From Oceanicola sp. D3 (lineage in GTDB: Bacteria > Pseudomonadota > Alphaproteobacteria > Rhodobacterales > Rhodobacteraceae), in contig NZ_CP040932.1 of assembly GCF_006351965.1 (NCBI RefSeq), positions 2,480,001 to 2,544,000 of the forward strand: a DNA stretch of 64,000 nt, in the 5' to 3' direction. Positions 4,662-43,913 of the stretch are shown piece after piece. Position numbers and translations under genes: made by a program. The notes under the pieces are model-generated. The model was not told the origin of the DNA, made no database searches, and saw only the letters and a program-made list of their open reading frames with translations. Position 1 is the stretch's first letter; every line of letters starts with the position of its first letter.

Positions 4662-4688
4662 TCTCGCTGCGCCTTGGCGCGACGATGC

Positions 4689-4713: not shown

Positions 4714-4754
4714 CCTTCACCACACTTTCCTGAAACCGCAAAGGGGCTGTTCAC

Positions 4755-16204: not shown

Positions 16205-16244
16205 TGTGGTTCCTCTTTGAGCTACGTGAGTTGGCGAGAGTCTT

Positions 16245-17869: not shown

Positions 17870-18621
17870 TTTCTCGACCAGGCAAGCGTGTTGCGTTCCC
17901 AAAGGCGGAACAGCTGGTTGAGCGTGTATCCAAGAAGAGAGAGCACGATGACGGCGGCGTACATATCGCCCGGGCGCATCGCGTATTGCATATTGATGAT
18001 GTAATAGCCGATGCCCCCCGAGCCCGCGATCATCTCGGCCACGACGGTGGTGATGAGCGCAATGGCGAGGCTCGTGCGCATGCCGGCAAAGACGTAGGGC
18101 ATCACCGCGGGCAGCACCACGCGCCGCACCGTGCGCAACCGGTTGACGCCAAAGGTTCGGGCAACGTCGAGGTAGGTGGTTTCCACGTTCAGCGTGCCCG
18201 ACAGGGTGTTGATGACGACCGGAAAGAACACCGCGAGGCTGACGACAAAAACCTTCAGCGCATCATCAATGCCGAGGATGAAGATCAGCGGCGGAATGAT
18301 CGCGGCAGCCGGAATCGGGCGCATGATCTCGACAAGGCTGCCCAGCATCTGGCGCAGCGGCGTGGAGAGGCCCATGGCGAGGCCGAGCACAACGCCGAGC
18401 GTGCTGCCGATGACAAAGCCACTCCCCATCCGGAACAGGCTGGAGCCGACAACATAGAGCAACTCGCCGCCAAGGAGGCCGGTGACAAGGCTCGACAGGA
18501 CGGTGGTGAACGGTGGCCATGTCGTGCTGCCCGGAACGATGAGGCGCGCGGAGACTTCCCACAGCACGAGGAGAGCTGCGACGAGCAGGTAGCCCCAAAT
18601 CCTGTGTCCGAGATTCTTCAT
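17866..18621 (-). CDS. ABC transporter permease (NitT/TauT type), first gene of operon
   Basis: A 251-residue permease with about six membrane segments, a typical GSTLGVVLGLAMGL stretch and the EAA-like region AGMRTSLAIALITTVVAEM. It is the promoter-proximal gene of the ten-gene leftward operon that ends at 10023. The 170-bp gap to the divergent IclR gene holds a perfect palindrome. Confidence 0.92.
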   Translation of the reverse strand: MKNLGHRIWGYLLVAALLVLWEVSARLIVPGSTTWPPFTTVLSSLVTGLLGGELLYVVGSSLFRMGSGFVIGSTLGVVLGLAMGLSTPLRQMLGSLVEIMRPIPAAAIIPPLIFILGIDDALKVFVVSLAVFFPVVINTLSGTLNVETTYLDVARTFGVNRLRTVRRVVLPAVMPYVFAGMRTSLAIALITTVVAEMIAGSGGIGYYIINMQYAMRPGDMYAAVIVLSLLGYTLNQLFRLWERNTLAWSRK

Positions 18622-18712
18622 CCGTCAGTCCTTTGCATGGCGCTGTGGCCGGGAGTAGCTGTTCTGAAAGTCAGGTTGTCGCCCAACTTGAAACCAAGCC
18701 ACAGTCTGCACC

Positions 18713-18737
18713 TACCTTTCCGCTCTGCGGAAAGGTA
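18713..18737. promoter_or_regulatory. Perfect 25-bp palindrome, likely IclR operator
   Basis: The arms TACCTTTCCGC (18713-18723) and GCGGAAAGGTA (18727-18737) are exact reverse complements around a TCT spacer. It lies 55 bp before the IclR start and 92 bp before the divergent permease start. Position and symmetry fit an IclR-family operator serving both promoters. Binding is inferred. Confidence 0.75.
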
Positions 18738-18791
18738 TTGTCGCTGGGGCTTTCCCTATCGCCCTCAAATCAAGCATTGGCAGGTCAGAAG

Positions 18792-19622
18792 ATGCCAGAA
18801 ACCATTCAATCCCTGTCACGCGGCCTCCGCGTCCTCACGTTGATCAATCAGCGCGGCGCCGTTTCGCTCGCCGATCTGCACCACGCCACCGGATTCTCTC
18901 GCCCCGCAATCCTGAGGCTTCTTGCAACCCTGGAGGCCGAAGGCTTCATCCGCCGCTGGCTTGATGACGGGCTTTACCGAGTGAACACGTTGAGCCCCGG
19001 GAACAACCGCAACATCGCCTGGCTCACGCTGGTTGCCGACACAATCGGCCCCAGCCTGAGCGACCTGACCGACCAGATCGGTTGGCCCGTCGACGTGGCT
19101 GTTCTTGACGGAGACAAGATGACCCTCTGCGAAACAACACGGCGGCAGTCGCAGTATCCCGTCGACCTGATCACCTCCGGCTATCAGGTGCATCTGCTCC
19201 AGTCCGCCGTCGGCCGCGCCTATCTGAGCTTTATCGGCAAGGATGACCGCACCGCTCTTCTGGGCCGCCTCTCCCGCTCAACGGACCCGTACGACGCCTT
19301 GGCACGAGATCGAGAGAAGGTTGAGGCCATCGTCGAGGAGGTCCGGAGCCTTGGATACGCCACACGGTCAGTCGGCTACAGCGCTCAGAACACCACCTAT
19401 GCAGGCAGCATGCGCGCGATTGCCGTGCCGGTCTACCAAGACGGCACCGTCGCCGCCTGCCTCAGCGTTGCCTGGACGGCCACCTATATGGATGCCGAAA
19501 CCTTTGCAGCCAAACACCTCGCCACGGTGCACGCCACCGCGCGCGAGGCGTCACACGTCATGGAATCGGCAAGGGCAAAAACCCTCTCTGAGGCGCACCA
19601 ACCCACATCGGGACCGAGCTGA
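18792..19622 (+). CDS. IclR-family transcriptional regulator
   Basis: A 276-residue regulator. It has an N-terminal winged helix (VSLADLHHATGFSRPAILR) and a C-terminal IclR effector domain containing CETTRRQSQYPVD and MRAIAVPVYQ. It is transcribed away from the ABC/Rieske operon and is probably its local regulator. The ATG at 18792 (MPETIQSLSRGL) fits the family start; the upstream in-frame extension to 18633 runs through the palindrome and is rejected. Confidence 0.9.
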   Translation: MPETIQSLSRGLRVLTLINQRGAVSLADLHHATGFSRPAILRLLATLEAEGFIRRWLDDGLYRVNTLSPGNNRNIAWLTLVADTIGPSLSDLTDQIGWPVDVAVLDGDKMTLCETTRRQSQYPVDLITSGYQVHLLQSAVGRAYLSFIGKDDRTALLGRLSRSTDPYDALARDREKVEAIVEEVRSLGYATRSVGYSAQNTTYAGSMRAIAVPVYQDGTVAACLSVAWTATYMDAETFAAKHLATVHATAREASHVMESARAKTLSEAHQPTSGPS

Positions 19623-19756: not shown

Positions 19757-21541
19757 TCAAGCGCAACGGGCAGGCGCCTTCCTTTGCGGCTCTACTTGCG
19801 GAAACTCGATGAAAAAGGTCGTGCCCGCGCCGGGGCTGCTTTCGTAGGTTATGTTGCCTGCCATTTTCGCAGCCAATTGCCTTGAGATGTGCAGCCCGAG
19901 ACCAGAGCCCTGCGTCATGCCGGGGCCCTTGCCGGGGACTTGGTCGAACCGGCCGAACACCTTGCTTTCAAGACCCGACGGGATGCCCCTGCCGTGATCC
20001 CTGATCGAAAGCCGCACTTGCCCATCTGCCGCTTCCAGACGGCCTTCCACAATGCCGCCCTGATGCGAGAACTTGATGGCGTTAGAAACAAGGTTGTCGA
20101 TTATCTGGCGAACGGCGAAGGCATCGCCTTTGATAAGCGTGGCCGTCTCGATACTGCCCTTCGAAAGCTGCACATCGCGCTCTTTTGCGAACATCGAGTT
20201 TTCTTGGAAACTCTCGTCGAGAAGGCTCTCAAGGTCGACCACATCCTCTTCCAGCGATAGCGCTCCGATCTCGAGCTTTTGCGCCAGAAGGATGTTGTCG
20301 ACAAGCCGCGCAAGACGGACACAGTTGCGGTGAGCGATGGTAAGCGGAGCCTTGAGAGGCGGGCTCAAGTCGCCGAGGTGACCGCTCAGCGCCAGCGTCA
20401 GCCCTCCTCTCAGTGAGGTGAGAGGCGTGCGCATCTCATGGCTCACGAAGGAGATAAACTCGTCCTTCGCCCGGTTGGCGTCATCTGCACGTTTCAGCGC
20501 TTGTTCCAGTGCCGAGTTGATCGCGAGGCGATCGGTGATGTCGACAAAGGTGATGCTCCAGCCGAGAACGTTGCCCAGCGGGTCTAGAGGATTTTCAATC
20601 TCCTGAATGCGCGGTTCGTAGACCCGCTGACCAATGGTGAGATGCGGCGAGCTTTCCCTGACCGGGTCCGATCCGTCTTTGGCACGCATGATGGCCTGTA
20701 CAGCGCTCTTCAGCTCGTTCATATCCCGGCGCTTTGCCTCCGAGTTCATGAGCACCACGGCCCCTCGGCGGTCGATCAGCGCGACCGGTTCGCTCATCTT
20801 GTCGAAGAGAACCGATTGGCCGACATTGGCCATGTCCATCGTCTTGCTGGTCATCAGCATCCAGGTGAAGACCAGAATGCCGAGGGTGAACATGAAGGCC
20901 GTCGGGTCCAGCCCGAACACGGTCAGCCCAAGGCCAACATAGGCCGCATTGGTCAGCAGAGGGGTTATGGTGACAAGCGCCAACACAGCGAGAAGCGGCC
21001 ACGCCGTTCGCCTCGCCCGGGTAAAGGCCCGCGCGATGCACACCAGCCCCGCCATCACGAACACATAAAGGCTGGCGATAATCGCAAAGAAGGCGGGCCC
21101 ATGGCTGTATCGTATGGTGTCCTGGCCAGCGGGAATGGCCGTCTCTTCGCCGTAAACCAGATGGTGCCAGGGGTTGGTGGCAGCCACGGCAAAGACCACA
21201 GCCGGCACCACGGCAATCAGGATGCGCAGGCGACTCTTGGCAAACCCACCAGCCTCATTGAGGTAGGCGAATACGAAGAAGCACCAAGCGACAGGTACCA
21301 GCGCATTTCCAAGCCAAGCGAGGGTTGCCCAGGTCATCTGGCAGGAAACGCCAGTCGATGCGGCCTCAAGGCCCACCATCGCAAGGGCCCAAGCGACGCC
21401 GACGAATGTGAGCGCCAAGAACGCCTGACCATTGAAGTGCGGCACCCTCAGCATGCGGATCATCGCAAGGAGTGCGATCAAACTGACCCCGCCTGTCCCC
21501 AGAAAGATCGGGTCCGCAAGCAGTCCTTCCAAACATGTCAT
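19757..21541 (-). CDS. Membrane histidine kinase (7TM-type sensor, PAS, HisKA, HATPase)
   Basis: A 594-residue kinase. About seven hydrophobic segments fill residues ~12-230, as in the histidine-kinase 7TM N-terminal family. A PAS-like region follows around 245-340. The phosphoacceptor is H368 in SFVSHEMRTPLTSLRG. The ATPase domain has N-box NLVSNAIKFS, G1 DHGRGIP and G2 GSGLGLHIS. There is no receiver domain, so it needs a separate regulator; the receiver protein at 21876-22841 is just upstream. The ATG at 21541 is preferred to a TTG at 21556. Confidence 0.92.
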   Translation of the reverse strand: MTCLEGLLADPIFLGTGGVSLIALLAMIRMLRVPHFNGQAFLALTFVGVAWALAMVGLEAASTGVSCQMTWATLAWLGNALVPVAWCFFVFAYLNEAGGFAKSRLRILIAVVPAVVFAVAATNPWHHLVYGEETAIPAGQDTIRYSHGPAFFAIIASLYVFVMAGLVCIARAFTRARRTAWPLLAVLALVTITPLLTNAAYVGLGLTVFGLDPTAFMFTLGILVFTWMLMTSKTMDMANVGQSVLFDKMSEPVALIDRRGAVVLMNSEAKRRDMNELKSAVQAIMRAKDGSDPVRESSPHLTIGQRVYEPRIQEIENPLDPLGNVLGWSITFVDITDRLAINSALEQALKRADDANRAKDEFISFVSHEMRTPLTSLRGGLTLALSGHLGDLSPPLKAPLTIAHRNCVRLARLVDNILLAQKLEIGALSLEEDVVDLESLLDESFQENSMFAKERDVQLSKGSIETATLIKGDAFAVRQIIDNLVSNAIKFSHQGGIVEGRLEAADGQVRLSIRDHGRGIPSGLESKVFGRFDQVPGKGPGMTQGSGLGLHISRQLAAKMAGNITYESSPGAGTTFFIEFPQVEPQRKAPARCA

Positions 21542-21875
21542 CCTGGCCCGCCCCAAACGAAAGTTGTCGTTACGTCAAACACTCGCATCAGGATGTGGTG
21601 AAAGTTCGGCGGTGGATTGTCTTTCTCACCATGTAGGTACCGGCGCTGGCGCTTTGTGCCCAAAATTTGGGTTGCGAAGATGCCGCAATGAGCGGGCGGG
21701 CGGGTTGCTCTGTGCTGGAACTCTGCCTTGCGCAGTTTACAGCTGTGCCCTGCGGATTAGGCGGTGCCCTTACCGGCGCGGCACCGCAGCGAGCGCCGCT
21801 CGGCCCCCGCAAAAACCGGGCCTCCAATGATGGTCCTGTCACACTGCTCTGGGCATCTCGCCAGCGGTAGTGCCG
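21542..21875. other. Intergenic, no gene seen
   Basis: About 330 bp between the response regulator stop and the kinase start, both leftward. It should hold the kinase promoter. I see no convincing coding frame, terminator or repeat. Confidence 0.5.
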
Positions 21876-22841
21876 CTAGGAGTTGACCACGCGAAACCGC
21901 TGTGGCTGAACGGAGCCGCGTTTTTTCTGCCCCCGGCTCTCAGCGCGGGCAATGGCGCGCTCGAAGGTGTGCTTCACGCGCTGGGTCCGGTGCAAACTTG
22001 GGCGGATTGGGTTGCCGATGGAGACATCTATATCAATCGGCTGGCCGTTGTCGTATTCAATCTGCCTCTCCTCAATCATGGCCTGAATCTCGGCTTCCAG
22101 CGGTATCGAGGATTCCATTTCGACCTTGTTGGACACCACTACGAAGGTTCCGTTGCCGGTATAGGCCATCAAGTGCCGGTCAGATGCGAAGGCTCTTGAG
22201 ATGGCATCGGCGACCTCGGAGAGAACGTAGAGAAATTCTTCTCGAGACGCTCTGCTGAAGATGCTCTCGATCGGCTCAACCTTGACGGCCACCACCTGCG
22301 ATCCGGCGATGCCCACGTGGGACAACTGGGTGAGGTAGTTTTGCAGCGCGGTGAAGGTGACGATATCCTCGACGCCGTCGATGGAAACTTCCCGCTCGAG
22401 ACTGACCTCTTCCGCGCCATCATCTTTTGTGTCGCGGGCCAAAGCCAAGGAGCGCTTCGGCAGCCCCTCGATCATCTCTTGCGCCTTCTGGAGCCGGTTG
22501 GCCAATTGCACAATGTCTAACGGCTTGTTCAAGTAGTCCGTAGCCTTGGCCCTGAACGAACGGTCGATGTACTCCTCGGCGGACCTGGCCGTGAGCATGA
22601 TGATCGGGATCTTGTGATAGGTCGGAATGGTTCGAATGAGCGCACAGAGCTCGATGCCGTCCAAGTCGGGCATGCTGATATCGAGCAATACACAGTCGAA
22701 GGTGCTTGGCGCGTTTGCTATGGTTTCCAACGCGCTCGCGCCGGATGACACGGTGGTGATGTCGGAGAACCCGACCTTCCGCACCATGACCGTCAGAAGA
22801 TCGAGAACCACTTGCTCATCATCGACTGCCAAAATTTTCAT
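21876..22841 (-). CDS. Response regulator: receiver plus degenerate GGDEF-like domain (paralogue 1)
   Basis: A 321-residue protein. The receiver has acidic D7/D8, phosphoacceptor D54 in VLLDISMPDLDG and K106 in NKPLD. After a linker, residues ~160-310 follow the order of a GGDEF domain: FTALQNYL, a VVAVKVEP strand, LSEVADAISRAF, then AYTGNGTFVVV where GGDEF should be, then DIDVSIGNPI and FERAIARAES. The signature is TGNGTF (228-233), so cyclase activity is unlikely. Two paralogues with the same layout lie at 25245 and 29199. It lies upstream of a kinase on the same strand. The domain call is by pattern comparison, not a profile search. Confidence 0.85.
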   Translation of the reverse strand: MKILAVDDEQVVLDLLTVMVRKVGFSDITTVSSGASALETIANAPSTFDCVLLDISMPDLDGIELCALIRTIPTYHKIPIIMLTARSAEEYIDRSFRAKATDYLNKPLDIVQLANRLQKAQEMIEGLPKRSLALARDTKDDGAEEVSLEREVSIDGVEDIVTFTALQNYLTQLSHVGIAGSQVVAVKVEPIESIFSRASREEFLYVLSEVADAISRAFASDRHLMAYTGNGTFVVVSNKVEMESSIPLEAEIQAMIEERQIEYDNGQPIDIDVSIGNPIRPSLHRTQRVKHTFERAIARAESRGQKKRGSVQPQRFRVVNS

Positions 22842-23087
22842 GCGCTGCTCTACCCTATTGCGGTCCCTGTTTTGCAGCTAGACTATTTGGGGAATGAGGC
22901 CACAGTAAATACAACTTGTGGCTGAGTTTAGGCATTCACCTTTTCCTAACTGGAAACACTCCAAGGGCCGGAGGGTAGCAGCACGGTTGGCCTCCGGAGG
23001 CGCCAAAAGCCGAGGTGCATGCCTCGGTCAAAAAGCGGCTCGCGAGCGCGGGCTGCTAAATGGAAACCCACACCGCATCGGCGAGAG

Positions 23088-24686
23088 CTACGCGTCGAGG
23101 TTTTCAGGAAAGTTCACTGTGAAAGTTGTCCCCACGCCGGGCGCAGTTTCGAAGGCGATGGTCGCGTCGTGGTGCTCAAGGATCATCCTTGCGATGCCAA
23201 GGCCGAGGCCGGAGCCGGAATGGCCGCTGGCGTAACTTTCCGGCGCTCGGGTGAATCTTTCATATAGGCGGGATTGCAGCTCTGCGGGTATGCCGGAGCC
23301 GTGGTCGCGCACCCAGAACCCGGGCTGCGTTTCGGTTAGACCGATTTCGACACGGCTCCCGTGCTCCGAGGCCTTGATCGCGTTTGACAACAGATTGTTG
23401 AGCACTTGAACCAACCGTATCTCGTCGCCTTGGATTTCGCACTGCCCGGCCGCGCCGGGCACCACGCTCACTTCCACGCCATATTGCGCCGCGAAGGGCT
23501 GAATATCGTCCCGCGCTTGTGCCAAGAGCGTCGTAAGGTCGACCAGGCGAAGGTTTGGTTTGCCCCGCCCGGTACTGAGGCGCTCGAAGTCCAGAATATC
23601 CCGCACGAGCCGTTCCACACGCTTCAGGTTCCGCGCGGCGATGTCGAGCGTGGGTTGCAGAGCGGGGGATAGATTGTGCTTTTCGGCCTGTAGCAATTGA
23701 ACAGCAGCTTGGGCCGAGGTGGTTGGCTGGCGCAGCTCGTGCGAGACAGTGGAAATAAGCTCTTCGCGCGCTGCCTCTACAGCCTTTTGCTGCGTTATAT
23801 CGCGGATGACACCCAGCACACCAAGCCGCTGACCACCCTCCTCATTGAGAGGGGCGATGAAGATCTCTGCGTTGAAATTCTCACCCGACTTGCGCCGGGC
23901 TATCATTTCGAGGCGGTCAGTGCCGGCGCGCCGCGCCTCGCGATAAATGGTTTCGCCCTGCTTCCTGTACGACTCCGGGTCAGTGTAGAGCATCGCAGTT
24001 GTTTGGCCGAGCATCTCTTCCCGCGAGCGGCCAAAGGTGCTTACGGCTGCGCGGTTGACCCGGGTGATGCGGCGCTCTTCGTCGACGGTCAGGATCGCGT
24101 CAGGCACGGTATCGACAATGGCATCGAGCACCATTGTCTTGTCGGCAAGTTCCCTCGCCCTGCGGTCCTTCAGCGCCTCCTGCCCCAGCCAGCGGCCAAG
24201 GAGATCGACGAACTCGGCCTCCTGCGGCGTAAAGGGTGACCGGGCATCGGGCCCAGAGAAGTTGAGCGTTCCAACCCGATCACCGCCTACTCGTATCGGC
24301 ACTCCAATGTAGCTTTCGAGTTCAAAGGAAATGTAACAGGGGTGCTCCGCGATCTCCGACTGACCGGCATGGTGGAAGTGACGCACGCCGTCGGACGAGA
24401 AGGTGTGAGAGCAGTAGGTCTCCGCCAGGCGAAATTCGGTGCCCGCTGTAGGCGCCCAGTCGGGGCCTCTCACTTGGTCGATCGTATAGGTATCGCCCTC
24501 GACCCGGCTGACGATTCCGAGTGGAAGCCCGAATGCCGCGCAGCCGATCCCCAGCAGCTTGAAGACCTTGGTTTCAAACTCGATGTCCGGATCGAGCGAC
24601 AGAAAGAACAGCTGACGAAGCGCAAGGTTGTGCCGCTCGATATCGCAGGCCCGATCTTCGGGTATTTTCTCAACTCGGTTCAGCAC
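23088..24686 (-). CDS. Soluble histidine kinase (GAF, PAS, HisKA, HATPase)
   Basis: A 532-residue cytoplasmic kinase with no membrane segments. A GAF domain occupies residues ~25-175 (with AETYCSHTF and SYIGVPIRV). A PAS domain follows at ~185-300 (VPDAILTVDEERRITRVN, then GVIRDITQQK). The phosphoacceptor is H316 in STVSHELRQPTTS; the usual RTP is RQP here. The ATPase domain has NLLSNAIKAS, DHGSGIP and GSGLGLGIA. It lies 211 bp after the HPt gene and 246 bp before the next response regulator, all on one strand. GAF proteins bind small ligands or chromophores; the ligand is unknown. Confidence 0.92.
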   Translation of the reverse strand: MLNRVEKIPEDRACDIERHNLALRQLFFLSLDPDIEFETKVFKLLGIGCAAFGLPLGIVSRVEGDTYTIDQVRGPDWAPTAGTEFRLAETYCSHTFSSDGVRHFHHAGQSEIAEHPCYISFELESYIGVPIRVGGDRVGTLNFSGPDARSPFTPQEAEFVDLLGRWLGQEALKDRRARELADKTMVLDAIVDTVPDAILTVDEERRITRVNRAAVSTFGRSREEMLGQTTAMLYTDPESYRKQGETIYREARRAGTDRLEMIARRKSGENFNAEIFIAPLNEEGGQRLGVLGVIRDITQQKAVEAAREELISTVSHELRQPTTSAQAAVQLLQAEKHNLSPALQPTLDIAARNLKRVERLVRDILDFERLSTGRGKPNLRLVDLTTLLAQARDDIQPFAAQYGVEVSVVPGAAGQCEIQGDEIRLVQVLNNLLSNAIKASEHGSRVEIGLTETQPGFWVRDHGSGIPAELQSRLYERFTRAPESYASGHSGSGLGLGIARMILEHHDATIAFETAPGVGTTFTVNFPENLDA

Positions 24687-24897
24687 AAAACCTCCTCCCC
24701 CTATACCATTGCAACAAGCTGCGGAATTCGGCGCGAACCTGTCAATAACTCTTTCATCTTACGGTTGAAATCACGGAGCCAGAGTGGTGCCAGCGTGACA
24801 GGCGAACTGCAAAATGCAGGGCTTTCAGAGCCAGTCGCGTATGCACCCGCACAAATGCCGCCCGGGCTGCCGCTTTATCTGAACGGACTTCGGATAG

Positions 24898-25245
24898 TCA
24901 GGAATTGAGGGCTTGATACATTTCCGACACGAGTTCGCCAGCAAGATGCGAAAGATCTGTGCCGGTGCTGTCATTTGATATCTCGACCTCAAGCTTCAGC
25001 GCTGTTTGCCCCAGTTTGGGAAAGCTGAGCGTTTCAGCAACACCGAAGATCCGGTGCGCGCGGCGTGCCAAGCCATCGGCAACCTCTAGCCGTGCCGCTT
25101 GGGCTTCGAGGGCGCAGTAATTCTCGAAGGCTTCGATATGCTCGGGCAGAGAGCTCAAGAAGGCCATCCGGACAGGCGCGAGCATTTGGGCGAAGTCGTT
25201 CTGGGCCGATTCTGACGGTCTGTGCGACCGGTACGTGCTGCTCAT
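24898..25245 (-). CDS. HPt-domain phosphotransfer protein
   Basis: A 115-residue, mostly helical protein. The segment ARRAHRIFGVAETLSFPKLG followed by QTALKLE matches the HPt active helix, with H64 as the phosphoacceptor. The canonical Lys after the His is replaced (HRIFG rather than HxLKG). Its ATG overlaps the stop of the response regulator gene at 25245 (ATGA), so receiver and HPt are translationally coupled. It could shuttle phosphate between the kinases and receivers of this island. Confidence 0.8.
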   Translation of the reverse strand: MSSTYRSHRPSESAQNDFAQMLAPVRMAFLSSLPEHIEAFENYCALEAQAARLEVADGLARRAHRIFGVAETLSFPKLGQTALKLEVEISNDSTGTDLSHLAGELVSEMYQALNS

Positions 25246-26189
25246 CAGGCGAACCTTTTTCTGGCGAATCCCTGCATGGCCGGACGGGCGCGCGCGGAAC
25301 TCAGGGTTTCCTCAATGCTCTCATCAATCGTCCGCCGGGAAAAGAAGGAACCGCGTGTGGGCTTGCCTACCCTTACGACGGGGGCGCAGTTGATGAGATA
25401 GGTTTCCTGGTAGGCCTCGAGCGCGGTGTTGATCTGGTTTTCCAGTTGCTCTTGCGAAGCAAGGTGGATTGCCGAGGTTACCGCCATGAACTCACCCGAG
25501 CCGGCATAGGCCACGAGCAGGTTTTGAGATTTCATCGTATCCACAATCACCTCAGCAACATCGGCCATGATGTCGAGGAACTCCTCATCATTTGTGCGCA
25601 CGTAAATGTTTGCGGCGTTCTCGACACTCAGGCCGATGCGCTGGCTGATCGAGTAACGCGGACGCCCGACGGCCTTCAGGTAGTTGCGCAACGCGGTGAA
25701 GGAGATCAGCCCTTTTACATCAGGCGGTGTTTCGGCGTCTTCGAAGTCGAGTTGGTGCTGGTGGGAGGTCACCTCTTCCAGCTGATCCTTGATCGCGGAA
25801 GCCCGAAGGCGGCTTTCGTGCACGCGCCGGATCGACGCGAGGCGAGTCTTGAATTCGAGGTTGTCGAGCGGCTTGGTAATGTAGTCCACCGCGCCCGCCA
25901 TGAAGGCATCGTCGATGTACTGGCGACCGGACATGCCGGTGACCATGACGATCTGGGAAAGGCCTTCCGGGTCCATCGCACGCAGAATCCCGGTGAGCTC
26001 AATACCGTTCATCTCGGGCATCTGGATGTCCACAAAGATGCAGTCGAAGGGTGCCGCCTGCTGGCTCACCAGCCTCAGGGCCTCCGGCCCCGATGCGGCC
26101 ATCGCGAAATCATCGATATTATTATGCTGGAGGACGGCCTCGAACGCCGCCCGGAAGATAGGATCGTCGTCTACTGCGAGGATTTTCAT
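25245..26189 (-). CDS. Response regulator: receiver plus degenerate GGDEF-like domain (paralogue 2)
   Basis: A 314-residue paralogue of the 21876 and 29199 proteins. The receiver has D7/D8, phosphoacceptor D54 in IFVDIQMPEMNG and K106 in TKPLD. The C-terminal domain has FTALRNYL and AYAGSGEFMAV, so the GGDEF position reads AGSGEF (229-234). The ATG at 26189 has GGAGAAG seven bases upstream and is preferred over an upstream in-frame start. It is followed without gap by the HPt gene and preceded by a kinase gene 132 bp away on the same strand. Confidence 0.86.
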   Translation of the reverse strand: MKILAVDDDPIFRAAFEAVLQHNNIDDFAMAASGPEALRLVSQQAAPFDCIFVDIQMPEMNGIELTGILRAMDPEGLSQIVMVTGMSGRQYIDDAFMAGAVDYITKPLDNLEFKTRLASIRRVHESRLRASAIKDQLEEVTSHQHQLDFEDAETPPDVKGLISFTALRNYLKAVGRPRYSISQRIGLSVENAANIYVRTNDEEFLDIMADVAEVIVDTMKSQNLLVAYAGSGEFMAVTSAIHLASQEQLENQINTALEAYQETYLINCAPVVRVGKPTRGSFFSRRTIDESIEETLSSARARPAMQGFARKRFA

Positions 26190-26321
26190 CAATCTTCTCC
26201 TTCTAATCAAGTGTACCCTAGGAGGCGATTGAGGCGAAATTTGGATCGCCCATAAGTTGCGAGCAGTTTTTTGAAGTTTTTCTCAAGACGTCTGGAGCTT
26301 GCCGCACGAGCGCAGGATTGG

Positions 26322-27842
26322 TCAGCTGGCGGCGACGCATTTCGTAACAAGGTCGTCGGCTTCTGCCGCTTCTGCCGAAGGGTCCAACCTTGCAGGCTTC
26401 CCCTCCTCATCGTCATCGGCGAGGTCCAGATCGAAGTAGAAGGTCGTACCGGCGCCTTCATTCTTTCGATAGTCGATGGAGCCGTTGTGAGCCTGCATTA
26501 TCTGCTTTGAAATGTTCATGCCGAGACCCGTGCCACCGATTTTGCGGGTGTCGGACGAGTCGACTTGGCTGAATTTGTCGAACACGCGCTCGCGGTCATG
26601 GTCGGCAAGGCCGGGGCCTACGTCGATCACCGACACCCGCGCCCGCCCCTCCTCGACCGTCAGACGCACGCGAACCTGGCTGCCCTCAGGAGAGAACTTG
26701 GCCGCGTTGGACACGATATTGGTAAGCACCTGCTCGATACGCGCCGAGTCTCCCACCACCGGCAGATGATCGGCTTCCGCCTCGCAGGTGAGCCGCACGC
26801 CCAAGCGTGCAGCAAAGGGAGCGTTGGCAGCAACGGACTGCTCCACCAAATCTCGCAGGTCGAACCGTTTCATATTGAAGGGCATGCGTCCCGCCTCGAT
26901 CTTCTGAAGGTCGAGAATTTCATCAATCAGCTCGATCAATCGGGTGCAGTTGCGCTTGGCGATGCCCATCACTTGTTCAGCCTTTTCGCTGATCGGGCCC
27001 AAGTGTCCGGCGTGGGTGAGGTCGATAGACCCCTTGATCGACGTCAGAGGCGTGCGAAGTTCGTGGCTCATCGTCGAGATGAACTCGCTCTTTGCCTCGT
27101 AGCCCTGCTGGGCTTTGTTGTTTTCGACCGTCAGAGCTTCCATCTGCTCAAGGCTGCGTTGGTAGAATGACAGGTAGATCCGCGAGCAATCGATCACGAA
27201 ATACAGCACGAAGAGGCTGGTGAAGAGATGCGCCCAAAGCTCCGACTGAATCGTCGCACCCGTGACCCAGATGTCATAGATCGGAATGAAGAGGAACGTC
27301 GCCCCGTACATGCCGATCCGGACAACGAGGATGGGCAGGATGTGGTGGTTGTTCATGGCCGCGAAGAGCGCTGCAGCGAACAGGAAGAACAGCGACATGA
27401 AGTGCGTTCCCGGCCCTTGCGCCAAGGCGATCGCGATAGAATAGAAGACTATGACCGAGGCGCTGAGCACCGTTCCAACATAAAGCTGGTTTAGGAGGCG
27501 TCGTGCCACGGCTGCGTCGCGCCCGTCCCACACGAGGATGCGCTTGAAGACCGTGAAGTCGTAGATCTCCGACAAAATGATAAGGGCGCCGGTCATCAGA
27601 GCGAGCGCGATGCTGTAGTAATAGCCTGCCAGTCCAAGGGCAGCCGCAAAAATTATCTGCCGCTGCCAAACGAGCTTTCGTCCGACCTCGGCATAATCCT
27701 TCATTTGCTTGGCCCGGACCACGTTCTTTCGCGCTCCGAGTCCCAGCCCTTCTCGTTTGGCTTCTTTCGTCAACCTGCCTCTCCGAACCTCGGCGCAGGG
27801 GTCATTACCTGCGCTTGAACGGTGCCTTTCCGACACACTCAT
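26322..27842 (-). CDS. Membrane histidine kinase (multi-TM sensor, HisKA, HATPase)
   Basis: About 506 residues with five or six hydrophobic segments between residues ~58 and ~225. The phosphoacceptor histidine (H260 from this start) lies in STMSHELRTPLTS. The ATPase domain has NIVSNAAKFS, DVGPGLAD and GGTGLGMNIS. There is no receiver domain. The sensor part is not one I recognise. The start is uncertain: 27842 is the longest ATG reading; a second ATG at 27704 (MKDYAEVGRK) just before the membrane region is equally plausible, and neither has a strong ribosome-binding site. Confidence 0.85.
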   Translation of the reverse strand: MSVSERHRSSAGNDPCAEVRRGRLTKEAKREGLGLGARKNVVRAKQMKDYAEVGRKLVWQRQIIFAAALGLAGYYYSIALALMTGALIILSEIYDFTVFKRILVWDGRDAAVARRLLNQLYVGTVLSASVIVFYSIAIALAQGPGTHFMSLFFLFAAALFAAMNNHHILPILVVRIGMYGATFLFIPIYDIWVTGATIQSELWAHLFTSLFVLYFVIDCSRIYLSFYQRSLEQMEALTVENNKAQQGYEAKSEFISTMSHELRTPLTSIKGSIDLTHAGHLGPISEKAEQVMGIAKRNCTRLIELIDEILDLQKIEAGRMPFNMKRFDLRDLVEQSVAANAPFAARLGVRLTCEAEADHLPVVGDSARIEQVLTNIVSNAAKFSPEGSQVRVRLTVEEGRARVSVIDVGPGLADHDRERVFDKFSQVDSSDTRKIGGTGLGMNISKQIMQAHNGSIDYRKNEGAGTTFYFDLDLADDDEEGKPARLDPSAEAAEADDLVTKCVAAS

Positions 27843-27970
27843 AGGCAGAGTACGGGGATGACGTGGCAAAAATATGGCGCCAGCATACAACAATACGAAT
27901 AGTGGTTCGTGGGCTGTCTACGAAATGCTGGGGAAAAAATGCATCATTCACACGGTCATGACCTGACCAA

Positions 27971-27994
27971 AGCTCAGAGGGTCTTCCCTGAGCT
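27971..27994. promoter_or_regulatory. Dyad upstream of the LuxI-type gene
   Basis: AGCTCAG (27971-27977) and CTGAGCT (27988-27994) are exact reverse complements with a 10-bp spacer. The dyad is 113 bp before the AHL synthase start, in the divergent region shared with the kinase gene. It differs from a canonical lux box. A regulatory role is inferred only. Confidence 0.4.
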
Positions 27995-28106
27995 CGTGAC
28001 ACCGGGAGTTGTGAAACATTTCGCGCTAGAGCGCACCGTAAAGCCGCAGCCGCGAGCGCAGAGCGGGCCGAGGTTGCCCTTGGCTGGCGGTCTTCAGGCT
28101 ACATCC

Positions 28107-28700
28107 ATGTCGGTCGAAACGATGCATCTGCATGGCAATCTGATCGTGAACTACCTCAAGGCACGGCGACAGGTCTTCATCGTGTCGAAGGGTTGGCAAC
28201 TCTCCGAAACCCGGGGCATGGAGTTTGATCAATACGACACCCCCGAGGCACGGTGGATCGCCGTTCACGAGGATGGCGAGGTACTGGCCGGCATACGCAT
28301 CGCTCCCACCACGGCACAGTGCGGGCTACATTCTTACATGATCCGCGATGCGCAACTGGGGCTGCTCAAGGGGCTCCCACTCGATCCGCTTTTCGAGGAG
28401 GCGCCAGTGTCAGACCAGATCTGGGAGGCCACTCGCCTGTTCCTGCTCGATACGGTGCCTGCGCAACGACGCGCCGAGGTGCAGCGCCTGCTCATGTTGA
28501 AGATGGCAGAGGCGGCCCGTGCGGAAGGTGCCCACAGCGTTATCGGAATCGTTCCGGCGGTCTTCCAGCGCTGGCTGAAGAGGATCGGCATGGAGGCCGT
28601 GCCCATGGGGCCACGCTTCGAGCTCGATGGTGATCGCTCGCAGGCCGCAATGTTCAACGTCAGCATGGCCCCGCCCCCCCATTCACCTGAGGTCAACTGA
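28107..28700 (+). CDS. LuxI-family acyl-homoserine-lactone synthase
   Basis: A 197-residue autoinducer synthase that should make an acyl-homoserine lactone from S-adenosylmethionine and an acyl-ACP or acyl-CoA. Nearly all invariant LuxI residues are visible: R20/R21 and F24 in LKARRQVFI, W30, D41 and D44 in EFDQYD, R64 in GIRIAPT, E107 and R110 in WEATRLFL. The ATG at 28107 gives the normal LuxI N-terminus; an upstream start at 27909 or 27939 would add unrelated residues. No LuxR-type AHL receptor is encoded next to it. Its neighbours are histidine kinases and response regulators. Confidence 0.9.
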   Translation: MSVETMHLHGNLIVNYLKARRQVFIVSKGWQLSETRGMEFDQYDTPEARWIAVHEDGEVLAGIRIAPTTAQCGLHSYMIRDAQLGLLKGLPLDPLFEEAPVSDQIWEATRLFLLDTVPAQRRAEVQRLLMLKMAEAARAEGAHSVIGIVPAVFQRWLKRIGMEAVPMGPRFELDGDRSQAAMFNVSMAPPPHSPEVN

Positions 28701-28793
28701 GCTTACCGCTCGGTCATATCTATGCTATCGTTCCACCAAAGGTTTAGTGTGTGACTAGGAAGGTGCTTCAAAAACTACGGAAATATTGACTGG

Positions 28794-29198
28794 ATGACTG
28801 ATCCTGCAACGGCCCGCCCGCGCGTACTTCATGTGGACGATGACGACGACATTCGCGCAATTACACAGATTGCTCTGGCAGTGGTGGGTGAACTCGAGGT
28901 TCTTCAATGTTCCAGTGGGCTAGAGGCTCTGGAAGTCGCGCAGGAATTTTCCCCCGATATCCTTCTGCTGGATGTCATGATGCCCGACATCACGGGAGAA
29001 GAAACTCTCGCCGGGTTGCGCCAACTCGACGGTCTCGCTGATGTCCCGGTCATCTTCATGACGGCGAAGGCACATTCTGACGACGTAGAGCACTTGATGC
29101 AACTCGGCACGCAGCGTGTCATTGCAAAGCCCTTCGACCCGCTCACGCTAGCGTCGGAAGTGGTCGAGATCTGGCAACAGAGCGCAAACGAGGCCTGA
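28794..29198 (+). CDS. Single-domain response regulator (CheY-like)
   Basis: A 134-residue stand-alone receiver. The acidic cluster is VDDDDD near residues 15-19, the phosphoacceptor D60 in LLLDVMMPD, the switch Thr in FMTAK, and Lys in IAKPFD. There is no output domain. It lies 93 bp after the AHL synthase on the same strand and may be cotranscribed. Its stop codon abuts the stop of the convergent response regulator gene with no spacer. It may serve as a phosphate sink or intermediate with the HPt protein. Confidence 0.92.
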   Translation: MTDPATARPRVLHVDDDDDIRAITQIALAVVGELEVLQCSSGLEALEVAQEFSPDILLLDVMMPDITGEETLAGLRQLDGLADVPVIFMTAKAHSDDVEHLMQLGTQRVIAKPFDPLTLASEVVEIWQQSANEA

Positions 29199-30257
29199 TC
29201 AGGCTTCGGGCGGCGTTGGCCTCGGGCGCCGGGTGCCCCCCAGGCGCGGTCGGCGTGGAACGATGATGCCATCGCGCCGCTTGGTCTGATCGATTTCCAG
29301 TTGCAGGCGACGCATCAGGCGCTCTTCGGTGGCGCGCGCAATGGCGGTGCGCAGGGTCTGCACGCATACCTTGCCCGGCTCCACCTTGGGCCGGCGCGTT
29401 CGGCTCATGGTCACGCGGATGTTCTGCGGCCCATTGCCGAAGACGTCGGTCTTCAGGTTCCAGAACTCCAGCCTGGTCACGTCGACCTCCAGATTGCGCC
29501 GGCCATTGCCCAGCACCACGCAGCCGAAAACACCGCTTCCGACGTAGGAGATGAAGTGCTGACTGGAGGCCAGTTTTGCGGAGATGTTGCCTGCAACTTC
29601 GGTCAGCAGCGCGTTGAACTGTTCGGCGGTGCTATTGCGATAGATGTCCTGAATACCCTCGATGCGCAGGGCGAAGACCTCGGTGGCGACAGTCGTCTTG
29701 GGCAAAAGCTCAAGCATTTGCTCAAGATCGCGATCGGGCATGCAGGCTGCCACGCCTTGGATGGTGAACCCCTCATCGAGCGACCTGCGCGCCAGCGTTT
29801 CCAGCCGGGACGCGAGCTGCGCGGCGGATCGCTCGAGGCCAACCGACCGTCGCATTTGCTCGGCCAGTAGACGGGCTGTGCGTATGCGGGCCCCCAGCTC
29901 GAGGCCGCGGATCGGCTTGGTCACATAGTCCGAGGCGCCCGCATCGAAAGCCCGTTCGATCGAAGCGTCATCAAGCTTGGCCGTGAGCATGAGGATCGGC
30001 GTTATGCGATAATCCGGCAGAGCCCGGACCTTGCCGCACAGCTCAATACCGTCGATACCGGGCATAGCGATATCGAGCAAAACGCAGTCGAAGGGCTGCT
30101 TGGCCTCTGTGATCTTTTGCATTGCGTCTTGCGCGTGGAGCGCAGTGTCCAGATCTTGATAGCCGGCTTCGGCGAGGACAGTCCGCAGCAGCTGCAAGAA
30201 GGTCTCGTCATCGTCGACTGCAAGTATCCGCAAATCTTGCTCCCTCATCTCGTCCAT
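29199..30257 (-). CDS. Response regulator: receiver plus degenerate GGDEF-like domain (paralogue 3)
   Basis: About 352 residues. The receiver has D62 in VLLDIAMPGIDG and K114 in TKPIRG. The C-terminal domain keeps FALRIEGIQDIY, LLTEVAGNISAKL and SYVGSGVFGCVV, so the GGDEF position is VGSGVF (239-244). It has a basic proline-rich tail (RRPRLGGTRRPRPTPPEA) absent from the other two paralogues. The ATG at 30257 follows GGGGATAAGG closely; ATG at 30248 is an alternative. It ends back-to-back with the CheY-like gene. Confidence 0.84.
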   Translation of the reverse strand: MDEMREQDLRILAVDDDETFLQLLRTVLAEAGYQDLDTALHAQDAMQKITEAKQPFDCVLLDIAMPGIDGIELCGKVRALPDYRITPILMLTAKLDDASIERAFDAGASDYVTKPIRGLELGARIRTARLLAEQMRRSVGLERSAAQLASRLETLARRSLDEGFTIQGVAACMPDRDLEQMLELLPKTTVATEVFALRIEGIQDIYRNSTAEQFNALLTEVAGNISAKLASSQHFISYVGSGVFGCVVLGNGRRNLEVDVTRLEFWNLKTDVFGNGPQNIRVTMSRTRRPKVEPGKVCVQTLRTAIARATEERLMRRLQLEIDQTKRRDGIIVPRRPRLGGTRRPRPTPPEA

Positions 30258-30865
30258 CCTTATCCCCAGCAAGCCCTCTGAAATGAAAAATCCCCCATTG
30301 CGCGTTGCGGCTGGGGTTCACTAACGCAAAAGTTGTATGAAGAATCTGTCATAAGTCTGGCTGGATTGAGCCCTTTCTCGGCGGGTTGCGTAGGGGAAGG
30401 CGGAGGTTGCGCACATCCAAGGCGCCAGCCCGAGCGATACACCCGTGGGGGCCCCCAGGTTTGGCACAGGATCAGGTCACCAGATTGGTGCGGTCATGAG
30501 GTCTTGAGACTACCGGCGCTCGGCCGTTCAGCAAAGCCGACGAAAAACGAGAAAATCCGGCCGCGACTGGATGGGGAGAAACGTTTCTCAAGGGGAAATG
30601 GCGGAGGATATGGGCCTGACGTCGAACCTTCTCTCGACCTTAAGCCGTCATTGTCGTTTGGGAGGGTCACGGTTCGACGCTCAGCCGATTGAAACGCGAC
30701 AGGTAGCGGAATTGATCAAGAGCGGCATCATCCCCATTTCGATTTTGCCTGCATTCGTGCCTCGGCCAGCGTCATGTATCTCGCATGCACGACACACCGA
30801 CAGCGCAAAGCCGCTAGCAGTGCCAAGAGTTAAACGCACGCTGCCAGGGCAATCATTTAGCGAAA
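30258..30865. other. Gene-poor stretch between signalling island and EPS cluster
   Basis: About 600 bp without a supportable gene. It holds the upstream region of the response regulator and the left copy of an ~87-bp repeat (30551-30636). The short frames here show no family similarity. Confidence 0.6.
30551..30636 (+). repeat. Direct repeat, left copy (tRNA-3'-end-like)
   Basis: The ~86-bp block starts GAAAATCCGGCCGC and ends near GTCGAACCTTCTC. It matches 44421-44509 in the same orientation over its full length by eye, with long identical runs GGATGGGGAGAA and TGGCGGAGG. Read on the minus strand, 30599-30628 has a T-loop-like TTCGA and ends CTCCGCCA as tRNA 3' ends do, but the T-stem does not pair. 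The two copies bracket the EPS cluster. Confidence 0.7.
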
Positions 30866-32128
30866 CTAAGCGCGGGCGTTGATGACTTCGCGTAGGTGCA
30901 CCCCGAGCAGCACGAGGCCCGGCCAAAGCATATAGGCTTCGATCTCGATGTTCTCGCCAAACGAGAGCAGCACCATCGTCATCAGGATACCAAGCGGCAG
31001 CCTCCCGCGCGGATGGCGCGCGGCGTCGATGAGCGCGAAACCCACGTGCCACGCAAGCGGCACCAGCAGCGCGAAGAACCCGACCAGCCCCTTCACGAAG
31101 AGCAGCCCGAACCACGTGTGGTGGCTGCCGATCGGCATGTATTCCACCGCGTGCGAGCCGGGATGCACGGTGCCGTGGCCAAACCAGGGAGCCTCGTTCT
31201 CCCAGCGTTCGCGGGCGATACGCTGGAGGGTTTCGCGCACCCGCGTGCTGTCGGCCCGCGCGCCTTTGAAGGCCGAGACGGCATCGGCCGCCAGCGTCAT
31301 CAGGGTGGTGCCGACGACTGCCAGCGAAGCGGTCAGCGCCGCCGTGACCTGCCACGCCCAGCCGCGCAGGATCAGTGGCAGCATCCGCGGGGCCACGGTG
31401 CAGGCCACCAGCCCCACCAGCCCCATGCGGGACTTGGAGGCGAGGATCATCAGCACCCCCGCCGCCACGCCCGCCGCCATCCACCGCCGGTCTTTCTCTT
31501 CGAGCGCGAAGAGCACCATGATAACCCCGAGCAGCGCTGCGAAGGGTGACCAAGGCGCATAGAACTGCCAACGCGGGGTCCAACTCGCCGGATCCCATGT
31601 GAAGAAGTACACGCTGAAATACTCCGGTCCCGGCCCGCCGATGGCCTTGAGCGGCGAGGTGAAGATGCGCTCGGGCAGGCCGATGTAGGGGGCGGCCAGC
31701 AGCACCGGCGCGAGCGCGAGGGTCCAGAGCCCGACCACGCATTGGCCCCGGATCAGAACCTCGCGGCGAATTTGCAGCACCGCCCCGGCCAGCGGAAACA
31801 GCGCCAGCAACGCCCAGCCTTTGGCCCAGCCGATGGAGCTCTTGATCGTTTGCTTCAGGCCGAGGCCCCAGTCGAGGTGGCCAATCCAGAGCGCCACCAG
31901 CATGACCGCCATGCCGGTGAACCACGCCCAGACAAGGGCGGGCACCGGCCCGGTCGGGCGCAAGTCGGCACGCATTGCCGGCCCGAGATAGAGCGCCAGC
32001 GCTGCCAGCCCGCCGAGCAGCCATGCCAGCACCGGCCCGACCACATAGAGCGCACCCACCGCGTAGAACGGCCAGGTCCAAACAAGCGTCTTGTAGACCA
32101 TCCGCTCGGGGCCGGTGAGCCCGGTCAT
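30866..32128 (-). CDS. O-antigen/EPS polymerase-like membrane protein (Wzy/WaaL family)
   Basis: A 420-residue inner-membrane protein with about ten hydrophobic segments. A large polar loop at roughly residues 280-330 contains WFGHGTVHPGSHAVEY and IGSHHTWFG, the pattern of Wzy_C/O-antigen ligase proteins. It should polymerise lipid-linked repeat units on the periplasmic side. Its ATG overlaps the stop of the co-polymerase gene by four bases, so polymerase and length regulator are coupled. Confidence 0.82.
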   Translation of the reverse strand: MTGLTGPERMVYKTLVWTWPFYAVGALYVVGPVLAWLLGGLAALALYLGPAMRADLRPTGPVPALVWAWFTGMAVMLVALWIGHLDWGLGLKQTIKSSIGWAKGWALLALFPLAGAVLQIRREVLIRGQCVVGLWTLALAPVLLAAPYIGLPERIFTSPLKAIGGPGPEYFSVYFFTWDPASWTPRWQFYAPWSPFAALLGVIMVLFALEEKDRRWMAAGVAAGVLMILASKSRMGLVGLVACTVAPRMLPLILRGWAWQVTAALTASLAVVGTTLMTLAADAVSAFKGARADSTRVRETLQRIARERWENEAPWFGHGTVHPGSHAVEYMPIGSHHTWFGLLFVKGLVGFFALLVPLAWHVGFALIDAARHPRGRLPLGILMTMVLLSFGENIEIEAYMLWPGLVLLGVHLREVINARA

Positions 32129-33576
32129 GCGCGCGCATCCGGGCCGGGTTCGGGCCGCGCCAGCAGGCGGCCGATCAGGGCCCCGCGCATCCAGCCCAGC
32201 AGCAGGCCCAGCAGCATCATGAAGGTCGCCGCCACCCCTGCGGCCAGAGCCAGCTTGCGGTTGGGGGATGAGGGGGTCTCGGGCAGCGAAGGGTTCTCCA
32301 GCACCTGCACCAGCGGGTAGGAGGCATAAACGTCAGACTTGGTCGACTGAGCCTTGGCGATGGCGCTTGCAAAGACCGCCTCGGCCACGGTGAAGTCGCG
32401 CTGCAGGTCCTGCAACCGGGCTGCGGGGGCGGCCAGCCGCTTCTGCTCGGCCAGCTCGCCCTCGAGCCGGGCCGAGAGCGTCTCGTGCTGCCGGGCCACG
32501 CCCGCGCGCTCCGCCTCCATCCGCACCAGCTGAGCCAGCAGCTCGGCGCGGGCGCCGTCGGGCGCGAGGTCGAGAGCGGCCAGATCGGCCTCGCCCAGCT
32601 CGGTCACAGTAATCGCACGGGCAAGAATCGCTCCCCGCGCCGAGGCATGGGCCGCACGGGCCACTTGCACCTTGGGGTGACCCTCGCCGTAGGCCGAGCG
32701 TGCCTCGGCCAGCGCCGCTGCATGGGTGGCGGCCTCTTCGGTGAGCGCGGTGAACTCGGCATCGGCGTAGAGCTTCAGCGTTGCCGCGGCGGCGCTTGCG
32801 GGCACACCCAGCGTGGCTTCGAGCGCGGTCACGCTCTGGATCTTCTCGCTCAACGTGGCCTCCACGTCACGCACCCGGCTCTGCAATTGGCGGGTTTCCT
32901 CTACCATCGCGTCATATTGGCCGGGCGAAATCAGACCGGTTTCGTCTTGCAGCGCGGCGATGTCCTCCCGGGTCGCGGCCACCGAGCTTCGATATTCGGA
33001 GATCGCGGCAAGGCCGCTGTCTTCGCGCGTGGCCATCTCGTCGGCGCGCAGCGCGTCGATCTCAGCGAAGAAGGCTGCGATCAGCGCATCGCCGCGCGCC
33101 TGCGCTGTTTCCGGGCTGCCGCCGGCCATCTCGACGTGGATCAGGCTGGTCTGGTCAACGAGGTTGATCCGCGGGGCGCCGAACTCGCGGCGGTTCATCC
33201 CCATCGCGCCCGCGGCGGCATCCACGATCCGGTCGGCCCCGATCAGGCGCTTGTAGGTCTCGGTCGGGCTGACCGCGTTGCTGGCGAAGGCGGAGTTGGC
33301 ATAAGAGGAGGCCTGCCCGATCCCGTTGAGGTTCATGGAGGCCGAGGCACCCGAGCCGGGGAGGATCAGCGAGGCCGTGGATTTGAAGGTGAGCGGCGCG
33401 GTCTTCAAATAGCCCGTGATCGGCGCCCAAATCAGCGCCCCACCCATCAGGGCGAAGGCAAGATAGCGCGGAAACCGCCCGAGATCTCCGATCCGCCCAC
33501 CCAAGAGAATGCGCTTGCCGGTAAGGCGGCGCTTGCGGGCCGGTCTGGTGGCGTGAAACGTGTCTTGCAGGGTCAT
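32125..33576 (-). CDS. Polysaccharide co-polymerase (Wzz/ExoP-type, no kinase domain)
   Basis: A 483-residue chain-length/export protein. It has an N-terminal membrane segment near residues 38-58, a long periplasmic region with coiled-coil character (residues ~150-420) and a C-terminal membrane segment (LALAAGVAATFMMLLGLLLG) after a proline-containing PSLPETPSSPNRK. It stops ~27 residues later, so the cytoplasmic tyrosine-kinase domain of Wzc/ExoP is missing. No separate kinase or Wzb phosphatase lies in the window. It is the first gene of a two-gene unit with the polymerase. A TATCC/GGRTA dyad lies ~94 bp upstream. Confidence 0.88.
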   Translation of the reverse strand: MTLQDTFHATRPARKRRLTGKRILLGGRIGDLGRFPRYLAFALMGGALIWAPITGYLKTAPLTFKSTASLILPGSGASASMNLNGIGQASSYANSAFASNAVSPTETYKRLIGADRIVDAAAGAMGMNRREFGAPRINLVDQTSLIHVEMAGGSPETAQARGDALIAAFFAEIDALRADEMATREDSGLAAISEYRSSVAATREDIAALQDETGLISPGQYDAMVEETRQLQSRVRDVEATLSEKIQSVTALEATLGVPASAAAATLKLYADAEFTALTEEAATHAAALAEARSAYGEGHPKVQVARAAHASARGAILARAITVTELGEADLAALDLAPDGARAELLAQLVRMEAERAGVARQHETLSARLEGELAEQKRLAAPAARLQDLQRDFTVAEAVFASAIAKAQSTKSDVYASYPLVQVLENPSLPETPSSPNRKLALAAGVAATFMMLLGLLLGWMRGALIGRLLARPEPGPDARA

Positions 33577-33669
33577 CAGGCTTCTCCTTCACGGCGGACC
33601 ATAGAGGGAGGGGCCGGGCACCGCCGCTGCGCGGGTGGGGAGGCCCGTGGGGTATCAGGGGGTGGAGGC

Positions 33670-33683
33670 TATCCGATGGGGTA
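33670..33683. promoter_or_regulatory. EPS dyad A (TATCC-N4-GGRTA)
   Basis: Reads TATCCGATGGGGTA, ~94 bp before the co-polymerase start. It matches 12 of 14 positions of the element at 39316 and resembles the one at 34937. It is a candidate shared operator of the EPS genes. Confidence 0.5.
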
Positions 33684-33734
33684 GGTTGCGGGGCCGTGCC
33701 TGCGGTCTGGGTGAGCGCGCCGCCGGATCAAGGT

Positions 33735-34154
33735 TCAACCGGGGAGCCCGTCGATCTTCTCGAGGGCGGCAAGGTCGTCGTCCCAATCCGCGCGATCGGC
33801 GAAGCAGATGTGCGCGTTGGGCTTCATTCCGATCAGGCCATCGAGTGACCCTGCCGGCACAACAACCATGCCATCGTCTGCATCTTCAAAGGGCAGCGCG
33901 GACCCGCACCTGGTGCAGAAGCATTTTGCGTGTCGCGACCCGGAAAGCCGGAAGCTCCTGACATTTGCCTCGCCCGACAGCCAGGTGATCCTGGCCGTCG
34001 AGAAGAACAGGTTTGCCGAATGGGCTGACCCGGTATCCTTGCGGCAGCGCGAGCAATGGCAAAGAAAGAAGGCTTCGAAAGCGCCGGATATGGAGAACGT
34101 CACATCGCCACACAGGCACTGCCCAATTGCGGGGTCGGTCATCGGGATATCCAT
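33735..34154 (-). CDS. GFA/CENP-V-family zinc protein
   Basis: About 139 residues with the GFA-type zinc cysteines: GQCLCGDV, CHCSRCRK and CFCTRCGS. This family includes glutathione-dependent formaldehyde-activating enzyme, but most members have unknown function. It is flanked by EPS genes and a response regulator and shows no obvious link to either. The start is ATG at 34154, or 34142 twelve bases later. Confidence 0.85.
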   Translation of the reverse strand: MDIPMTDPAIGQCLCGDVTFSISGAFEAFFLCHCSRCRKDTGSAHSANLFFSTARITWLSGEANVRSFRLSGSRHAKCFCTRCGSALPFEDADDGMVVVPAGSLDGLIGMKPNAHICFADRADWDDDLAALEKIDGLPG

Positions 34155-34228
34155 CAAAACTCAACCATCAAGCCGCCCGTAAGATATGGATTGACGGGCG
34201 GCCTGCCCGCGCATCCCCCACGGCCCCA

Positions 34229-34846: not shown

Positions 34847-34936
34847 CAAAGGCTCCCGGATTCCGCACTGGCAGAACGCTTTCACTCCTATCTAACCAGC
34901 TGGCGGACCGAAAGGCACGGAGAATTCGGCCAGCCG

Positions 34937-34953
34937 CTATCTCCTTCGGATAG
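34937..34953. promoter_or_regulatory. EPS dyad B
   Basis: CTATC and GATAG arms enclose TCCTTCG, containing TATC...GGATA. It lies ~92 bp before the LuxR-type regulator and ~127 bp before the divergent glycosyltransferase fusion. It is related to dyads A (33670) and C (39316) but has a shifted spacer. Confidence 0.4.
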
Positions 34954-35078
34954 GTTTCCGCGCCGCTGGTAGTGATCGGTTAACCAACGCGCCTCGCACC
35001 TCTCCTCCCGCTCCGTTGAGGCGTGTCGGGGCCAGCGGGCATGAAAGGGCAAGTTCCTGAACCAGAAGGGTTTGCCCC

Positions 35079-36458: not shown

Positions 36459-36512
36459 CCCCACCCCAGCCACCTCACACCACCCCATCTGCTCAATCAA
36501 AGGACCCCTGCC

Positions 36513-40669: not shown

Positions 40670-40672
40670 CCC

Positions 40673-41593: not shown

Positions 41594-41616
41594 TCGCCCG
41601 CCAGAAAGGCCCTCCC

Positions 41617-43577: not shown

Positions 43578-43684
43578 GGAACGCGAGCCGTCAATTCATT
43601 ACCCTATGACGAGACAAGCCCAACACGTGCATCGTTCCCACAAGCTAGCTAATGGCTGCGTCGTGCTTGCAACAAACCTGAAAC

Positions 43685-43900: not shown

Positions 43901-43913
43901 GAATGGCGAACGG

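Follow-up and report, generated by a model that had tools for sequence, protein, structure and literature searches.

Three response regulators of Oceanicola sp. D3 define a large, selected family that has a dead cyclase domain as its output and occurs in about one third of the genomes sampled from its order. We propose, with a probability of roughly 0.6, that the regulator with the dead GGDEF domain stands at the end of a split phosphorelay and, switched by phosphorylation, acts through contact with another protein. The GGDEF-type fold of these proteins would have been kept by selection for another job than catalysis. The family is real and conserved and appears to be undescribed so far, and some of its members, including those studied here, lie beside a luxI gene that has no luxR partner.

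The analysed DNA (the window) is a stretch of 64,000 nucleotides, positions 2,480,001–2,544,000 of the forward strand of NZ_CP040932.1 (assembly GCF_006351965.1); positions below are in window numbering unless given as genome positions. The three regulators are all on the minus strand: RR1 (21876..22841), with a receiver at residues 1–120 and a dead GGDEF-like output domain at about 160–310, RR2 (25245..26189, starting at the ATG at 26189 of an open reading frame that extends to 26210) and RR3 (29199..30257, starting at the ATG at 30257 of a frame that extends to 30272), both with the same two-part layout. As the preliminary description had claimed, they are paralogues with TGNGTF, AGSGEF and VGSGVF, respectively, at the GGDEF position, and their receivers keep the residues needed. 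PF00072 matches all three (E = 2.4e-26, 1.8e-24 and 2.6e-26 for RR1, RR2 and RR3), and the acidic pair, the phospho-Asp, the Thr and the Lys are each present in 109/109 aligned sequences. This alignment, which underlies all counts out of 109, combined RR1–RR3 with 106 sequences from 80 named loci, the best 80 matches listed in the family scan, after removal of fragments shorter than 250 residues and of duplicate entries for genes of the window itself. Pairwise alignments of RR1–RR3 (29–34% identity; E = 5e-49, 4e-52 and 1e-32) span most of their length, so we consider them paralogues and exclude chance resemblance. They were the only full-length family members found in the genome (4.05 Mb, one contig), with RR3 the most divergent.

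The preliminary description had also read the segments flanking the altered motif as following the GGDEF order, which a profile search against the PDB and structure models of RR1 and RR3 bear out. As single sequences, RR1 fell just below the Pfam GGDEF cut-off (E = 1.2e-4; 22.4 bits against 23.8), while RR2 and RR3 gave no match to this model. Across 71 output domains (the three from the window and relatives), PF00990 matched 19 and the GdpP-type GGDEF model matched nine (E up to 0.1). A profile built from these 71 domains matched the GGDEF domain of DosC (E = 2.2e-8), 5euh (1.7e-6) and WspR (1.8e-4), in each case with the hairpin aligned exactly or shifted by a single residue. RR1 was modelled with AlphaFold2 (pLDDT 92, pTM 0.88), and a Foldseek search with the full-length model placed WspR, DgcR and PleD at the top (E = 1e-16 to 1e-12), above every lone receiver or CheY match. 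With VIA-align, lone receivers made up most of the 50 rows listed for full-length RR1, so the RR3 output domain was modelled and searched by itself (pLDDT 87, pTM 0.79); all of the 50 matches listed were then GGDEF-containing chains (Z 12.4–14.6). Structure prediction thus returned a GGDEF-type palm fold and not an unrelated one, and chance resemblance to GGDEF is ruled out by the profile and structure matches. On these profile matches and models, we regard the predicted GGDEF-type fold of the RR1–RR3 output domain as settled.

What the fold has lost is as consistent as what it has kept. At the third GGDEF position, 108/109 sequences have Gly and the remaining one has Ala, with an acidic residue in none (0/109). 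The family signature is G-x-G-x-F, with the first Gly present in 106/109 and a Tyr or His two residues before it in 108/109. Absence of the metal-binding acid at the third position strongly indicates that cyclic di-GMP is not made, as had been supposed. The output domain is nevertheless not decaying: dN/dS was 0.02–0.22 in all 12 close pairs compared (0.01–0.11 for the receiver, with dS saturated in some pairs), indicating purifying selection and therefore a maintained domain.

Protein contact and nucleotide sensing had both been suggested as the function that remains. The second would have the degenerate pocket bind cyclic di-GMP, GTP or another nucleotide, with binding and phosphorylation together controlling a partner, as in PopA of Caulobacter. 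The fold is a nucleotide-binding palm domain, the G-x-G of the hairpin is almost invariant, and cyclic di-GMP is probably made in this genome, since it encodes three canonical GGDEF domains. However, the RxxD I-site for cyclic di-GMP is in register in 0/109 sequences (2/109 in any register within 12 residues), both beta-1 acids are kept in only 3/109, and the position of the phosphate ligand K442 (PleD numbering) is Glu or Asp in 70/109. Because the canonical I-site and the K442-like ligand are lost, which weighs against canonical nucleotide binding, the residue pattern makes protein contact the more likely function; we consider nucleotide sensing unlikely, with non-canonical binding as its residual possibility. 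Alternatively, the dead domain could pair with active GGDEF proteins and raise or lower their activity. GGDEF enzymes act as dimers, and canonical partners are available in the same genome, but their genes (genome positions 512331, 2703286 and 2708604) are not near the module at about 2.50–2.51 Mb, and we find this quite improbable. A diverged enzyme with a rebuilt active site, still making a cyclic or linear nucleotide, would account for the strongly conserved hairpin, yet is very hard to reconcile with a signature metal-binding acid found in 0/109 sequences and beta-1 acid positions that are not conserved. Decaying cyclase relics in which only the receiver is useful, as a phosphate sink, would explain the lost active site, but this can be dismissed almost entirely given the low output-domain dN/dS, the near-invariant hairpin, the wide distribution and the several old paralogues per genome.

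To describe this distribution, samples of two taxonomic ranks were searched. In the order sample, 64/195 genomes (by our count of the matches listed) matched below E = 1e-14 and 85/195 at E up to 1e-3, the weaker matches between these two values being probably ordinary GGDEF proteins. There were up to five copies of the dead-GGDEF family per genome. In the class sample of 340 genomes, four matched at E up to 1e-10, all of them among the six genomes from the window's own taxonomic family; outside it, 0/334 matched among the rows listed, with at most ten candidates scored per genome. The relatives among the matches listed are Rhodobacterales, as far as they are named. A literature search by title and start of abstract, with most subscription journals outside its coverage, returned no paper describing this family.

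The genes around the regulators point to phosphotransfer. The preliminary description was correct about the three odd proteins, but it stood without the Hpt gene, the luxI gene, the lone receiver and the three kinases; our data show such proteins to be a family-wide class associated with phosphorelay genes. The Hpt gene (24898..25245, minus strand), absent from the earlier listing, encodes 115 aa with His64 in AHRIFG, and its ATG shares bases with the stop codon of RR2 (TGATG). PF01627 matches it above the cut-off (E = 9e-7; 29.5 bits against 24.6). It also matches our purpose-built Hpt profile (E = 5.8e-23), of which it is itself one of the seeds, these having been picked by the pattern around the His. 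The stand-alone receiver REC1 (28794..29198, plus strand; PF00072, E = 6.1e-24) has the acidic pair, phospho-Asp, Thr and Lys all intact. The three kinases are on the minus strand and were assigned from domain matches: HK1 (19757..21556) is a 7TM histidine kinase, HK2 (23088..24686) a GAF-PAS histidine kinase and HK3 (26322..27893) a membrane histidine kinase with HisKA and HATPase_c and several hydrophobic peaks ahead of the H-box. Domain search found no receiver in any of them. Kinases without receivers, together with a REC1 that has all of its phosphotransfer residues, are what a split relay needs, and the window encodes all four components: a kinase, an intermediate receiver, an Hpt protein and a final receiver. 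The luxI-type acyl-homoserine-lactone (AHL) synthase gene lies between HK3 and REC1 (27909..28700, plus strand; PF00765, E = 7e-14).

Beyond these genes, reading of the open reading frames gave ABC-transporter-like genes (a binding protein, two permeases and an ATPase) followed by an IclR-like regulator at 15245–19622, and genes resembling an exopolysaccharide cluster (a ligase-like membrane protein, a chain-length-like protein, a sugar transferase and a nucleotidyltransferase) at 30681–37400. The latter stretch also holds a NarL-type regulator (34229–34885), whose label, unlike the others, does not come from such reading. A 182-aa frame at 37474–38022 (plus strand) matches the Hpt profile weakly (E = 3.6e-5) and may be a second Hpt or a chance match.

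Most of this gene order is shared with a congener. In a region from that congener (L155), HK2, Hpt, RR2, HK3, luxI, REC1 and RR3 follow one another as in the window, at 50–78% identity. No orthologue of RR1 or HK1 was found in L155, so these two look like an addition; the lower G+C of window positions 20001–28000 (0.58–0.59) would fit a later arrival. Recent tandem duplication was rejected as the origin of the three regulators. In a 147-row tree (a quick build, with support below 80% on 52/144 inner branches) they fall in three separate places: RR2 groups with one L155 gene and RR3 with another, both with full support, and RR1 sits in another well-supported set. As a separate compositional feature, GC skew is −0.176 at 40001–44000, far off the rest of the window.

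Clustering of open reading frames near 121 loci exposed a small gene directly 3′ of many family members, which is Hpt. It lies directly downstream of 53/159 family genes, in 52 cases within 75 bp (there were 55 pattern matches, of which two were dropped as not Hpt-like), and all four of the small downstream proteins tested score above the PF01627 cut-off. We then took one region of about 20 kb from each of 40 genomes and compared these with control regions 200 kb away (17 obtained of 20). The 40 regions were chosen manually, mostly around a later-listed gene of the genome, out of 63 further genomes that had a strong match. A kinase was found in 27 regions, a lone receiver in 18, Hpt in 18 and luxI in nine, against one, one, zero and zero of the controls, although the profiles for kinase, luxI and Hpt derive from sequences of these same loci, which favours the loci over the controls. 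Lone receiver and Hpt occur together: both were present in 16 regions, neither in 20 and only one in four (p = 3.8e-7), and among the best 80 named loci the corresponding numbers were 40, 28 and 12. In the 121 loci, no conserved target gene stood beside the family once kinase, receiver, Hpt and luxI genes were set aside; the other large clusters, judged by position and by the beginning of each representative sequence, looked mostly like antisense frames of these genes or parts of ABC transporters. Control by CtrA was considered and rejected, as the window has one TTAA-N7-TTAA-like site against 1.29 expected, and none near the module genes.

In the relay that we propose, a kinase without its own receiver would phosphorylate the stand-alone receiver REC1, Hpt would take the phosphate on from REC1 and pass it to the dead-GGDEF regulator, and the phosphorylated regulator would dimerise or change shape and bind a partner protein. 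This is the commonest complete layout. Direction, partner, signal and the protein-contact output are our interpretation. Many family members lie outside a local relay, because 13/40 regions have no kinase and 20/40 have neither REC1 nor Hpt, and within the window Hpt adjoins RR2 only. Some branches, including many members near RR1 with a kinase and no REC1 or Hpt, would be plain kinase-regulator pairs.

The input to the relay, in the window and in some relatives, may be an AHL, as the relay adjoins a luxI without luxR and an HK3-type membrane kinase. No autoinducer-binding luxR (PF03472) is present in the window, and in this genome such genes were found only at genome positions 493243, 1170563 and 2290617. 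Eight of the 40 regions have luxI with no PF03472 luxR in the same region; the ninth luxI, in L149, belongs to a luxR-luxI pair. Near that pair (L149 positions 1824–6036), kinase and regulator frames are in pieces, which may represent a copy of the module in decay. HK3-type kinases (profile score above 570) occur in all eight orphan-luxI regions and in one region without luxI, and among the best 80 named loci, luxI is found in 11, with an HK3-type kinase beside nine of these. HK3 is thus the kinase type found beside luxI without luxR and is a candidate AHL receptor. The excess of luxI over the control regions is weak (9/40 against 0/17, p = 0.046), while eight in 40 regions is far above an assumed density of 2 to 3 luxI per 4 Mb, taken from our reading of a genome table (p about 1e-8 to 2e-7). 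One of these loci, L058 from Roseovarius nubinhibens ISM, has both luxI and an HK3-type kinase; in print, this strain is assigned to topology I of the orphan-luxI strains, with adjoining kinases (PMC3824088), and we take the L058 luxI to be that gene. The same work states the receivers of orphan luxI signals as an open question (PMC3824088). We tentatively suggest that HK3, luxI, REC1, Hpt and the dead-GGDEF regulator could form a LuxR-independent AHL quorum-sensing phosphorelay of Rhodobacteraceae, in which the membrane kinase HK3 would sense the lactone and the dead cyclase would give the output by protein contact; we hold this to be possible rather than probable. If true, this would reveal the receiver addressed by orphan luxI genes in roseobacters, and a one-gene knockout would test both dead-GGDEF signalling and orphan-AHL sensing in these bacteria.

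Several known systems share parts of this arrangement. WspR, DgcR and PleD, the best structural matches to RR1, have the same receiver-then-output fold, whereas the family described here is without their catalytic signature, I-site and phosphate ligand. The sporulation relay Spo0F-Spo0B-Spo0A likewise uses a separate protein for each role: a kinase, a lone receiver, a phosphotransferase and a final regulator; in our system, the final output is not DNA-binding and Hpt is of the PF01627 type. The nearest known kind, going by its published description, is LqsR of Legionella and PhcX of Ralstonia, in which a receiver is joined to a PleD-like output with a degenerate GGDEF motif, no cyclase activity is seen in vitro and there is a link to quorum sensing (PMC10653808). 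Both come from other classes of Proteobacteria than the dead-GGDEF family, and LqsR has no entry among the profile and structure matches listed, which says nothing of kinship. To our knowledge, Lqs uses a signal other than an AHL, and we know of no Hpt or lone-receiver gene beside LqsR. Osp of Cereibacter sphaeroides is, like REC1, a single-domain receiver from the same bacterial order, and it is described as having neither the acidic pair nor the Lys and as working unphosphorylated (PMC9430884); REC1 keeps these residues, so we do not favour orthology. Finally, topologies H, I and J of roseobacter orphan luxI genes have luxI without luxR beside histidine kinases, for which a two-component phosphorelay has been suggested (Cude and Buchan, 2013; PMC3824088). 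The module here shares the orphan luxI and the adjoining kinases with them and differs in its dead-GGDEF regulators and Hpt, which the accessible part of that paper's text does not mention (GGDEF has zero occurrences). A receiver with a degenerate cyclase output is therefore already known as a kind, and what appears to be new is this family, with its proposed relay and its orphan-luxI setting.
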